Origin: Hallerella porci
GTDB taxonomy: Bacteria; Fibrobacterota; Fibrobacteria; Fibrobacterales; Fibrobacteraceae
Assembly: GCF_003148885.1 (NCBI RefSeq)
Contig: NZ_QGHD01000009.1
Coordinates: forward strand, 1-64,000
DNA: 64,000 nucleotides
Direction: 5' to 3'
Under the pieces are notes generated by a model. That model saw nothing but the letters and a program-made list of their open reading frames with translations. It did not search any database and was not told the DNA's origin. Positions 10,046 through 14,450 of this stretch are shown here, one piece after another. Position numbers and translations under genes: made by a program. How positions within the stretch are numbered: the first letter of the stretch is position 1; each line of letters begins with the position of its first letter.

Positions 10046-10299
10046 TTCTCTTATTCTCAGATAGAAATCTCGACAGTTTCAGACACTGAGAGTAGGCGAA
10101 CGCTCACGTCTGCAGGTAAAACTGCATCTTTCGTATGACATTGGTGTGTATATTTTCGCCTTTGTTTGCGTTTGACCTTATGGGGCGTGGGTTGTTTGTA
10201 TTTATTTGTGTCGGGCAGTCGAGAGCCTCTATCTGGTAAGTACATTCAACACCACGCCTTTTTCATTTTAAAAATCGCGCAGGGGAATGCGAATAAGAG
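10046..10299. ncRNA. candidate structured RNA or miniature element, copy A
   Basis: A closing stem pairs 10048-10056 (CTCTTATTC) with 10291-10299 (GAATAAGAG), nine perfect pairs. The 5' arm can alternatively form an 11-bp local hairpin, 10050-10060 with 10086-10096, around a 25-base loop. That loop contains TCTCGAC (10068-10074), exactly complementary to GTCGAGA at 10218-10224. A further stem pairs GGCGTGG (10184-10190) plus GTTG with CAAC plus CCACGCC (10252-10258) and is followed by five T, which suggests transcription on the plus strand. The loop recurs almost unchanged 270 bases downstream in copy B. The RNA interpretation is inference; the ends also resemble terminal inverted repeats of a small mobile element. 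Confidence 0.4.
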
Positions 10300-10315
10300 T
10301 AAACGCTGAGCAGTT

Positions 10316-10496
10316 TGCTCTTGTTCTTAGATAGAAATCTCGACAATTTCAAGACCAAAGAATAAGGCAAATAACGGATAGACAGCGCTTTTGGGCGGCT
10401 GCATTTTTGCGTATTGCGCGTGCGCCCATCGTGTATCGAGTCGTCTTGTATTTGCTTGAATTTTGAAACCGTCGAACTCTCTTCGAATCAAGAGTG
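10316..10496. ncRNA. candidate structured RNA or miniature element, copy B
   Basis: Homologous to copy A: 28 of 31 bases match between 10051-10081 and 10321-10351, and all three differences are transitions. The closing stem pairs 10318-10326 (CTCTTGTTC) with 10485-10494 (GAATCAAGAG, one bulge), so an A-U pair in copy A is a G-C pair here. The local hairpin is also kept (10320-10328 with 10058-equivalent 3' arm at 10358-10366), with a C-G to U-A change. The loop sequence TCGAC can pair with GTCGA at 10471-10475. It ends 34 bases before the methylase ATG, so it may act as that operon's 5' leader. Confidence 0.4.
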
Positions 10497-10530
10497 ATTT
10501 AGTCACCTTAACGCGAAGGAGCGAGGATCG

Positions 10531-11661
10531 ATGGCAAGCCAATTACAAAAAGCAGACAAAGTTCTTGATCCAATTATTAAATGGCCAGGCGGAAAAGAAC
10601 GCGAGCTAAATAAAATATTTGAATTTGCTCCTATAAAATTTGAAAATTTTATTGAGCCATTTGTGGGTGGCGGCTCTGTTTTTATGGCAATGCATGCAAA
10701 AAAATATTTCATCAATGATTTCTCTACTGAATTAGTTTCATTATATAGACAGATTGCTCAGCAAAATAAACAATTCTATTACAATGCAAAATCTCTAACA
10801 CAAAGCTGGGAAAACATTTTAACTGAATTCAATAAAATAAAAGATTCACTCATTGAGCTATATCAAGAAAAATTTTCAGCAAATGAAATTCAAGAAAAAA
10901 TTCAAAAGGTTCTTTCTTCAAAAAAATTTCTTTTCCAAAACATTGTCGAAAATTTTGACGGAAATCAATTTGATTTTACCAAAGATATACAATGCAGTAT
11001 TTTACAAAAAATCAAGCGAATGAAAAAAATTGAACAAAAAAAAGGAATTCTATCTACAAAGGATTTATGTGACAATTTTGAAACCGCTATTCGAAACGCA
11101 TTTTATCTTCATTTAAGAAAACTTTATAATAGCAAAAATAATTCTCCAGAATTGCAAGCTATTTTATTTTTCTTTATCCGTAATTTTGCCTATAGCGGAA
11201 TGTTTCGATATAATCAGCAAGGAAAATTTAATGTTCCTTATGGAGGCATTGGGTATAATCGAAAAAATATTCAAAAGAAAATTGAGTTTTATAAATCGAA
11301 AGAAGTTATAGAACATTTCAAAAATTGCTGTATAGAAAATTTGGATTTTGAAAAATTTTTAACAAAGTATAAACCCCATAAAAATGATTTTATGTTTTTA
11401 GATCCGCCGTATGATTCTGAATTTAGTACTTACGCAAAAAACGACTTTACAAAAAAAGACCAAGAACGACTAGCAAATTTTTTAATCAACAAATGCAAAT
11501 GTAAATGGATGTTAATTATAAAAAAGACAGACTTTATCTACAACCTTTATGCAAACAAAAAAGGAATCACTGTTTTAAGTTTTGAAAAAAATTATTCCGT
11601 CAGTTTTATGAATCGAAATGAAAAAAATGTAACACACCTTTTAGTGAGAAATTATGTCTAA
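10531..11661 (+). CDS. D12-class (Dam-like) N6-adenine DNA methyltransferase
   Basis: 376 residues. KWPGGK at 17-22 and EPFVGGGS at 42-49 form the AdoMet site, and DPPY at 291-294 is the catalytic motif of N6-adenine methylases. Order and spacing fit the D12 class. At 376 residues it is longer than Dam (about 278), with a lysine-rich helical insertion at roughly 75-190. AAGGAG at 10516-10521 supports the start. It overlaps the McrB-like gene by eight bases, so it is the protective methylase of this restriction operon. The gene is strikingly AT-rich (13 G/C in the 60 bases at 11281-11340), a sign of transfer. The target site cannot be read from sequence. Confidence 0.9.
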   Translation: MASQLQKADKVLDPIIKWPGGKERELNKIFEFAPIKFENFIEPFVGGGSVFMAMHAKKYFINDFSTELVSLYRQIAQQNKQFYYNAKSLTQSWENILTEFNKIKDSLIELYQEKFSANEIQEKIQKVLSSKKFLFQNIVENFDGNQFDFTKDIQCSILQKIKRMKKIEQKKGILSTKDLCDNFETAIRNAFYLHLRKLYNSKNNSPELQAILFFFIRNFAYSGMFRYNQQGKFNVPYGGIGYNRKNIQKKIEFYKSKEVIEHFKNCCIENLDFEKFLTKYKPHKNDFMFLDPPYDSEFSTYAKNDFTKKDQERLANFLINKCKCKWMLIIKKTDFIYNLYANKKGITVLSFEKNYSVSFMNRNEKNVTHLLVRNYV

Positions 11662-13110
11662 GTTTAGCGAACCTATGCTTTTAATTCCATCAGTCCTTAT
11701 TGCAGGAAAAAATGGTGGCTACATTTCTACGACCGATTTAATAAATAAATTGATTGATTTTCTGCAGCCTAGCGGAGAAGATTTGCAAATTAACGAAAGT
11801 AGAAATGATACAAAATTTTCACAAAAAGTAAGAAACATTATTGCACACAAATCATTAGAAAATATTGGTTTAGCGATTAAAAAAGATGATGGTATAGAAT
11901 TAACTTCACAAGGAAAAGAAATTTATCAGTCCTTTTTATCTCAAGATCAATCCCAATTAAATATTCTTCAATCCCCCGTCCCCGATAATTCTCGCGATCT
12001 CTTCTCCGCCTATTCCCCAAATCATACGCCTTCGCAAGTGATTTTTTACGGCGTGCCGGGCTGCGGGAAAAGCCACACGATTGATTCCACATTAGAAAGT
12101 GTTGACGAATTTTGCAAAATGCGTGTGGTGTTTCATCCGGAATATACGAACGCTGATTTTGTAGGACAAATTCAACCTGTCAAAAAAAGCGAAAATATTT
12201 CATACGATTTTATCCCGGGACCTTTCAGTAAAATTTTAAAGCGCGCCTATTTTAATCCCGAAAAACATTTTTATTTAATCATTGAAGAAATCAACCGCGG
12301 ATACGCTGCAGCAATCTTCGGCGATATTTTCCAACTCATGGATAGAAAAAATGGCGTTAGTACATATCCTATCGAAAACGATTTTATCAACGATTACATC
12401 CGAAAAATCGAAGAGAGTTTTAAAGACTCTAAATTTGTAAAAGATATTCCTGACGGAGAAAAAATGATTCTTATTACAAACAAATTCATTTTGAAAAGTT
12501 TGATTTTAATTTTGAAACAGGGATTCGCTTGCCAAAAAATTTATCGATTATTGCCACGATGAACACGAGCGATCAAAATGTGTTCACCTTAGATAATGCT
12601 TTCCAGCGTCGCTTTGATATGGCGCTAATCCCGAATGAATTGGACGAAAAATCCGCGCAAAAAAATGCAGAAATCGCAGAAACTAAAATTACTTGGGGCA
12701 CATTTTGGAAATGGATTAACGAGAAAATGATGCAATCAGATACCGGTATGGCAAGCACCGAAGATAAACGTTTAGGCGCTTGGTTTATCGTGAATCAAGA
12801 TGGAAAAATCAATGAAAAAGTTCTTGCCGAAAAAGTCTTAAAATATTTATGGGATGATGCGTTTAAATTCAAACGCAAAGATATTTTTGACGAAAATATT
12901 TCATCGCTAGAGATGCTTATCAATGAATTTAAAAAATCACGATTTAAGGTTTTCAAAGAGAATGATGAACTTCTTAGGAAACAAGGAGAAAAACAAAATC
13001 CGCAAAATTCTGATTCGTCCGATGAAAATGCAAATGAATTGGGTTCGAATGAACAGACGAACGAATCTAATTTAAACGAAAATTCGGAACAAAAAAATAG
13101 CGAATCGTAA
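11654..13110 (+). pseudogene. McrB-like AAA+ GTPase subunit of a restriction system, split by a frameshift
   Basis: The first frame (11654-12562) encodes a winged-helix-like N-terminal domain (about 1-100), then GVPGCGKS at 133-140 (Walker A) and LIIEEINRG at 208-216 (Walker B). The second frame, open from about 12463, supplies ETGIRLPKNLSIIATMNTSD, the McrB-type MNTxD nucleotide-recognition motif, and the rest of the motor. The two parts join if one base is added in the A6 run at 12459-12464. The C-terminus is a low-complexity Asn/Glu/Ser tail. McrB-type subunits bind DNA with the N-terminal domain and translocate using GTP. The gene overlaps the methylase and is followed after eight bases by the nuclease. 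Mutation, slippage or sequence error are all possible. Confidence 0.8.
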
Positions 13111-13118
13111 AAATCAAA

Positions 13119-14450
13119 ATGTCGCTGAAAGATTGTTGCAAATGCGCTACGAATAATCAAAATGACGACGATTCTTTTTTCGTCGGCATTCGCTTTCGTA
13201 AAGGAAATCCGGAAGTTCAATTTCCGCTTGGTTACTTTTCCGATGCAGAATTGCGTGAAATTTCCGAAGAAAATCTACGCAAAGAAATTCTAACGCTTTT
13301 CGAAATTTTAAGCGATGCAACGCTTATAAAAAATGACGAAAATTCTGAAATCAATTTCGAAAATTTAAACGAAGAAAATGAGACTTTTCCGTTTCAAGCT
13401 TATCGCAATGTGCTGCAAAATTTTTTGGAATTTGGTTATTACAAAGAACGCGAAGTCATTTACAAACAAGGCGCACACGGAAAAATTCATTGGGGGCGAA
13501 CTATCAAAATGACTCGCCCCATCGTTTCAGGGAAAAATCTGATTTACTTAAAACCGATTGCTCGCAAAGTAAGCTATAACGAAAATGAACTCATCACACA
13601 AATTCACAAATTCTGCGTTCACGATGCGTTTGAAAAAATTGGATTTTTATACAGCATCAGCGAGACCGAGAACTCCTATTTGACTTTTGACGAAGAATTA
13701 TTTACCGCGGTTTTGAATGAAAAAATTTCAAAAACATTTAACGACCGCGATTTGCAACTCTTTTACGATTTGCAAAAAATCGTTGCGTATTTAGCGGGGA
13801 AATTTAAAAGCGGAAAGATGCAAACGGATTTTACTTTTGGCGTGAAAAAATTCCACACGATTTGGGAAAATTTAATCGATAAAATTTTGGGGAACTTAAA
13901 CGTCGGCGAAGATAAAAGTGAATTTAATCCAAATTGCGGTTGGGAATTAGAAAATAAACAAAAGTATAACGAAAATAAAAAATACGCAATGCGCCCCGAC
14001 ACGTTAATGCGTTATCAAAATGAAAATGGCAACTATCTTTTTATCGTGGATTCAAAATTTTATCAATACGGCTTTACGCAAAACACAAATGATTTACCTT
14101 CATCGGGTTCTATCACAAAGCAGATTGCCTACGCCAAATTTGCAGAAATTCATCACAAAGTAAAATGCGAAAATCCAAACGATGCCGGCAATCGCATTTA
14201 CAATATTTTCATTTTACCCTACAACGCAAACGACGATTATTTTGCCAATTTTTCAAAGGAAAATTTTCAAAATTCATTTTACAAAATCAAATCCATCGGT
14301 TACGCCAAAACGGATTGGGTGAATTTAGACGAACGCCCCTATCACAAAATTTATAGTTTTCTATTTGACTTAAAAGCCGTTATGCATCGCTATCAAAAAT
14401 CCGAAGAAACGCAAAAAGAAATCGCAGAAAATGTGATAAAGCTCGGGTAA
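13119..14450 (+). CDS. LlaJI-like (McrC-type) restriction endonuclease subunit
   Basis: 443 residues. The architecture fits the LlaJI restriction endonuclease family, the nuclease partner of an McrB-like GTPase. A PD-(D/E)xK-type site is visible: Pro293-Asp294 in MRPDTLMRY, then VDSKFY with Asp311 and Lys313. Upstream, KIHWGRTIKMTRPI (about 126-139) is the conserved region preceding the nuclease core. It would cut DNA lacking the partner methylase mark when recruited by the McrB-like subunit. In LlaJI itself the methylases are cytosine-C5 enzymes, whereas the only methylase here is an N6-adenine type. The frame is intact even though the motor gene is interrupted. Confidence 0.75.
   Translation: MSLKDCCKCATNNQNDDDSFFVGIRFRKGNPEVQFPLGYFSDAELREISEENLRKEILTLFEILSDATLIKNDENSEINFENLNEENETFPFQAYRNVLQNFLEFGYYKEREVIYKQGAHGKIHWGRTIKMTRPIVSGKNLIYLKPIARKVSYNENELITQIHKFCVHDAFEKIGFLYSISETENSYLTFDEELFTAVLNEKISKTFNDRDLQLFYDLQKIVAYLAGKFKSGKMQTDFTFGVKKFHTIWENLIDKILGNLNVGEDKSEFNPNCGWELENKQKYNENKKYAMRPDTLMRYQNENGNYLFIVDSKFYQYGFTQNTNDLPSSGSITKQIAYAKFAEIHHKVKCENPNDAGNRIYNIFILPYNANDDYFANFSKENFQNSFYKIKSIGYAKTDWVNLDERPYHKIYSFLFDLKAVMHRYQKSEETQKEIAENVIKLG

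Follow-up and report, generated by a model that had tools for sequence, protein, structure and literature searches.

Attenuators of the trp type are built from four segments that pair as 1:2 and 3:4 in the terminated state or as 1:4 and 2:3 in the antiterminated state. Transcription attenuation is also the basis of copy control in pT181-type plasmids, where it is exerted by an antisense RNA (PMC3753616). In restriction-modification (R-M) systems, antisense RNAs have been described for EcoRI and Eco29kI, which arise at reverse promoters within the R-M genes, each serving one system only (PMC3874152), and delayed endonuclease expression has been discussed for R-M systems controlled by a C protein (PMC3695507).

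The window analysed here is a stretch of 64,000 nucleotides from Hallerella porci. Within it, two leader elements, A and B, immediately precede, in the same orientation, an operon encoding a D12 methyltransferase, an AAA subunit and a LlaJI-family endonuclease (Table 1). The AAA gene changes frame near position 12500, while homologues at loci L045, L048 and L064 run through 577-705 aa in one frame; the split is a frameshift or a sequencing error. No gene for a regulator protein was found between leader and operon. A simple scan of the window for a sigma-70 consensus promoter upstream of A returned none, and many loci carrying both elements show a -10-like TATATTT about 20-25 nt upstream of the 5' hairpin, R. 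The original prediction described A and B as two homologous structured elements. Positions 10051-10081 and 10321-10351 indeed match at 28 of 31 bases, the three differences all being transitions, and the direct repeat extends to 39 nt at 90% identity with a spacing of 270. The homology is limited to the R hairpin; outside it, no clear resemblance is left between the bodies of the two elements. Compared with shuffled sequence, the fold of A stands out (z = -6.6), whereas B alone has no significant fold (z = -0.9). On balance, A and B, which belong to a large RNA family, appear to form one composite, two-stage leader of the LlaJI-like operon.

Table 1. Features of the composite leader and the operon behind it (positions in the window).
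Feature	Position	Strand	Evidence
Closing stem of the antiterminated rod, 5' side, pairs with 10291-10299	10048..10056	+	inverted repeat; homologues
R hairpin of A: stem 10050-10058 with 10088-10096; upper stem GAAAT/GTTTC; loop CTCGACA	10050..10096	+	homologue alignment
Locus address inside R of A	10057-10065, 10068-10074, 10082-10086	+	address pairing
Antiterminator strand AACGCTCACG	10099..10108	+	kept in nearly all homologues
Intrinsic terminator of A: stem 10184-10194 with 10247-10258, apical stem, T-run 10259-10263	10184..10263	+	covariation
T, the address complement, apical part of the terminator (10208-10212, 10218-10224, 10228-10236)	10208..10236	+	partner of R in both A and B
Closing stem of the rod, 3' side	10291..10299	+	inverted repeat
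R hairpin of B: stem 10320-10328 with 10358-10366; A's address (10327-10335, 10338-10344); no T	10320..10366	+	
3' end of leader B	10470..10533	+	sequence; start codon 10531-10533, Shine-Dalgarno 10516-10521
D12-class adenine DNA methyltransferase, first gene of the LlaJI-like operon	10531..11661	+	Pfam PF02086 E=1.9e-35; PADLOC type II MTase
AAA restriction subunit, split over two frames	11654..13110	+	Pfam AAA_5 E=4.5e-5; PADLOC REase_II; ORF list
LlaJI-family restriction endonuclease	13119..14450	+	Pfam PF09563 E=2.7e-36

Across the aligned loci, element A follows a common plan: the R hairpin, an antiterminator strand, a variable centre and a terminator. The local hairpins proposed for both copies are conserved in homologues; in 41 A-type homologues, the outer 9-bp stem of R is paired in 97.6% of cells, and the hairpin overall is 94.4% paired. 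The GC stem followed by five T residues proves to be an intrinsic terminator, its apical loop holding the complement of the CTCGAC in the loop of R. Its helices are paired in 98.4% of cells with double changes present, a level reached in 0 of 500 shuffles; a conserved, covarying terminator with a T-run is what a transcription attenuator leader has between promoter and gene. Upstream of it, GCTCACG at 10102-10108 can pair with CGTGGGT at 10186-10192 in the terminator 5' arm, which is the pairing partner of the antiterminator CUCACG, and this pairing is mutually exclusive with the terminator. In the divergent loci L231, L233, L240, L265, L271 and L273 the antiterminator covaries with the terminator arms, with antiterminator, 5' arm and 3' arm changing jointly to CUCACACC/GGUGUGGG/CCACAC or to CUCGCACC/GGUGCGGG/CGCACC.

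R and the terminator hairpin each present two inner-loop strands and an apical loop, and the set in the terminator (T) is complementary to that in R. Because both the R:T pairing and the pairing of antiterminator with terminator arm covary, R:T with the antiterminator on the one hand, and the R hairpin with the terminator on the other, constitute alternative folds. The first of these forms a long rod, whose closing stem, already suspected in A, falls within a 22-nt inverted repeat that is 86% complementary; in homologues a run of 8 or more occurs in 51%, compared with 15% of shuffles. The median energy gap between the two competing folds is 2.8 kcal/mol, and the lowest-energy fold is the rod in 92 of 151 loci and the full terminator in 55; the computed folds on which this scheme rests exclude pseudoknots and kissing loops. 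The covariation of antiterminator and terminator, together with these close energies, bears out the mutually exclusive folds that had been proposed. Its sequence marks element A as a transcription attenuator whose two folds are mutually exclusive.

The R:T complementarity spans about 25 bp and differs at every locus yet covaries fully, constituting a locus-specific address. The distant complement of the CTCGAC loop seen in the original prediction is a real long-range pairing, but it represents just the middle third of this longer one. On an alignment made without structure, the 22 R:T pairs are paired in 92.4% of cells, where shuffles give 65% and slid controls 33-39%; the covariation score is 0.673 versus 0.181, and double changes occur in 20 of the 22 pairs. 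All four Watson-Crick pairs are used at nearly every R:T position among 152 loci. The duplex of R with its own T has a mean predicted energy of -31.7 kcal/mol in 152 distinct loci, against -14.1 kcal/mol with foreign T, foreign pairs being the proper control because the duplex program finds a best pairing for any two strands. The separation persists within single genomes (own/foreign -34.6/-13.7 for 10 loci, -34.9/-14.0 for 13 loci and -34.0/-14.5 kcal/mol for 25 loci), and in terms of the recognition between leader hairpin and regulator known from pT181, the predicted potentials for own and foreign pairing are clearly distinct. The 25 addresses of F. intestinalis ATCC 43854 hardly cross-pair, the few exceptions being identical duplicates (L254/L255 and L256/L259), the neighbouring units L244/L245 and the weak pair L247/L266. 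In F. intestinalis, two A+B units 2.1 kb apart (L045:4392-6892) carry similar addresses with a predicted cross-pairing of -30.3 versus -33.2 kcal/mol for own pairing, offering a natural test of cross-talk. A type III R-M leader occurs twice in one genome (L050 and L051) with the address unchanged, and a full-length mod gene follows only one of these copies.

Element B occurs solely a short way downstream of A, and what follows it is nearly always a DNA methyltransferase. Among loci fetched with long flanks, some 30 have it immediately behind A. A T always stands 31-104 nt upstream of B (5-95% range). The R hairpin of B has B-specific flanks but the address of the adjoining A. With the T of its own locus it pairs at -28.4 kcal/mol versus -14.9 with foreign T in 60 B candidates, some of which are weak, so that the true contrast is if anything larger; at the present locus, the T duplex is predicted at -31.4 kcal/mol with R of A and at -24.1 with R of B. 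The agreement between A and B within a locus exceeds that between different loci by 0.2-0.47 at most address columns and by about 0 in the flanks, variable ones included. The body of B contains no locus-specific partner for its R hairpin (-21.4 versus -21.2), and T of A is therefore its sole locus-specific partner. A candidate stem over the Shine-Dalgarno sequence is formed by CTCTTCG at 10479-10485 with CGAAGGAG at 10514-10521; sequestration of this kind was rejected as a general rule, the enrichment in homologues being only modest (49% versus 28% in control genes). As had been proposed, element B is the leader proper of the methyltransferase. Conservation and covariation across the family demonstrate, at the level of predicted pairing, the family fold, its two alternative folds, the pairing of the address and the copying of the address in B. 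The earlier interpretation had grasped the paired copies and their competing folds, while missing the address itself, the logic of antiterminator and terminator, the repetition of A's address in B without a partner for it there, and the other loci.

Those other loci are numerous. In a DNA search, 20 of 61 relatives contained homologues, about 70 stretches in all, and a covariance model of the terminator domain found the element in 90 of 111 Fibrobacteraceae genomes, with up to 25 loci per genome, and in none of the 57 genomes searched elsewhere in the phylum. The several hundred matches are confined to Fibrobacteraceae. Comparison of the window with Rfam 15 gave no family at the gathering score, the best sub-threshold match (E=1.4) lying on the other strand, and relaxed thresholds yielded nothing. 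The proposal of a new RNA family is upheld by this lack of a match together with the many covarying homologues: the family is new to Rfam. No description of such leaders in Fibrobacter was found in the literature library searched. Besides Fibrobacter records, a pattern scan of public genomes returned some short contigs under other labels and a handful of matches regarded as chance, in Rheinheimera, a gammaproteobacterium and a betaproteobacterium. The short contigs that carry the element (L097, L105, L150, L176, L187 and L202) are labelled Bacteroidales, Bacilli or Treponema; they are probably misbinned Fibrobacter, or the element may have been acquired by transfer. An exact-motif scan of viral contigs was empty, and a single viral match to the terminator pattern was discarded, the element itself being absent. 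Two loci with R only (L088 and L091) were considered as trans targets of an A elsewhere in the genome and set aside as degenerate or deleted copies with no convincing partner.

Among the loci fetched with long flanks, R-M genes follow 26 of the 28 A+B units with a readable downstream gene, including methyltransferases of C5, D12, N6/N4, EcoRI and Eco57I types and a Tsp45I-type endonuclease. The exceptions are the second unit of L045, which precedes a DUF4417 gene, and L059, where B is degenerate. In one F. intestinalis locus (L044:3670-4704), the reading frame of the C5 methyltransferase that follows the leader contains an in-frame TAG. Units with A only precede type I, IIG, III and ISP R-M genes, EndoU and a Zorya-like operon, as well as Fib_succ_major lipoproteins, 8xMP and very long surface proteins. 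At L034:3315-9404, such a leader stands before genes for ZorA-like and OmpA-domain proteins and a HerA-like ATPase, possibly a divergent Zorya-like defence system. At L055:2203-10501, L086:2117-8447, L061, L066 and L067, leaders of the A-only kind stand before Fib_succ_major lipoproteins or very long surface proteins; the leader is therefore not a feature of R-M systems alone. Since the downstream systems are mutually unrelated, the leader is modular. Only a minority of the methyltransferase genes in these genomes have a leader, and the same holds for the C5 genes of F. intestinalis.

In the proposed mechanism, one fold would combine the local R hairpin with the downstream terminator, stopping transcription and releasing an RNA of about 220 nt. 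In the other, R would pair with T in the terminator loop to form the long rod, and the antiterminator strand would capture the terminator 5' arm, allowing transcription to continue. Transcription of A would stop in part at its own terminator, and T of the terminated transcripts would pair, probably in trans, with the R hairpins of A and B leaders being newly made, blocking the rod and lowering expression of the operon. Every operon would in this way have an RNA feedback loop to itself, shielded from those at other loci. When an R-M system enters a cell, the result may be high early expression of the methyltransferase-first operon followed by damping; such timing is not the general purpose of the family, since A-only loci lack B and many of them precede surface lipoproteins. 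Selection on the address of B is most simply explained by T acting in trans, because the T of the same molecule is expected to be already engaged by R of A. R of B could nevertheless use the T of its own transcript, and T in the finished A RNA could be hidden by its own R, in which case trans pairing would not be guaranteed. Repression is the least certain step; the negative sign follows from the model's treatment of R:T within one leader as the antiterminated state. That a second leader repeats the address points to control of each operon by an RNA of its own, free of cross-talk, and a two-stage, self-addressed attenuator in which T of A acts on R of B, giving orthogonal feedback, is somewhat favoured as the explanation. 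More tentatively, RNA feedback circuits that need no protein and are orthogonal to one another may form a natural library in Fibrobacter genomes, up to about two dozen in number, in which private addresses of about 25 nt are common to attenuator, terminator and, in R-M loci, second leader, and by which each R-M or surface-protein operon would sense the dose of its own leader transcript.

A purely cis-acting attenuator that senses a ligand or protein is a rather unlikely alternative, although it accommodates all of the strong evidence. R:T would then be an internal helix drifting by compensatory change, and B a serial second stage using the T of its own transcript. Covariation in the terminator, the antiterminator and R:T fits a cis switch equally well, the constant position of B a short distance downstream of a T makes cis pairing possible, and the central domain between antiterminator strand and terminator, which is large and conserved in A+B members, could be an aptamer. 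However, this domain is absent from the minimal members L039, L041, L257 and L260, and in transcripts that reach B, T should already be paired with R of A. Furthermore, addresses are fully replaced between paralogues whose flanking stems are conserved, a pattern that selection for insulation fits better than drift.

It is improbable that the leader serves processive antitermination, loading a factor on RNA polymerase for long, horizontally acquired operons. Long R-M operons and very large surface proteins (for example 1862 and 2482 aa) do lie downstream, but this function predicts neither locus-specific addresses nor their repetition in B, and it has no need for a conserved terminator inside the leader. 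Concerted evolution, with R of A and R of B kept alike through gene conversion between direct repeats 270 bp apart, is very improbable even though the two segments are such repeats. The confinement of the excess agreement between A and B to address nucleotides argues against it, as this excess vanishes in the variable flanking columns and in the interspersed stem columns; moreover, at several loci B departs from A and still pairs with T equally well or better (20 of 60 loci). Slighter still is the chance that the address is a recognition or recombination site, at the DNA level, of a locus-specific protein. The modular occurrence of the elements before unrelated operons would agree with such a site, but the layout is strand-specific with terminator and start codon, and unrelated systems (C5 in L044, Tsp45I in L063) have nearly the same address. 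Recognition by the linked methyltransferase itself is rejected, given that methyltransferases 95% identical (units L064/L026 and L037) have different addresses. Least probable of all are the two miniature mobile elements of the original prediction, suggested by dispersed copies and inverted repeats at their ends: these repeats are RNA stems, the copies examined lie shortly before a gene on the same strand and are strongly diverged rather than near-identical, and homologues show compensatory change pervasively and on a massive scale.

If the self-addressed attenuator is correct, an uncatalogued RNA family with unusually strong covariation exists in culturable fibre-degrading bacteria and provides a protein-free way to dose and time many R-M systems per genome without cross-talk. 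The idea is directly testable, since the address can be swapped. Compared with C-protein controlled R-M systems, the possible purpose is similar, namely the timing of expression after entry, but RNA alone would be used here, with no regulator protein gene between leader and operon. The EcoRI and Eco29kI systems likewise place R-M expression under RNA control; here, in contrast, a modular sense leader stands before unrelated R-M types. The trp-type attenuators exhibit the same four-segment alternation as A, which differs in having no leader peptide or known ligand, in carrying a locus-specific address, and in being followed by a second leader that repeats segment 1. The pT181-type system is similar in that a leader hairpin open to a complementary RNA decides between the terminator and the antiterminated fold, with specificity residing in the hairpin loop and adjacent bases and with members that can be made orthogonal (PMC3753616). 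It differs in that no antisense gene is seen here, the complement being carried by the sense leader itself, within the hairpin of its terminator. The Fibrobacteraceae leaders are also chromosomal, with many natural members per genome; set against the engineered 7 x 7 orthogonal set of pT181-type regulators (PMC3753616), the 25 loci of one genome would constitute a larger, natural one.
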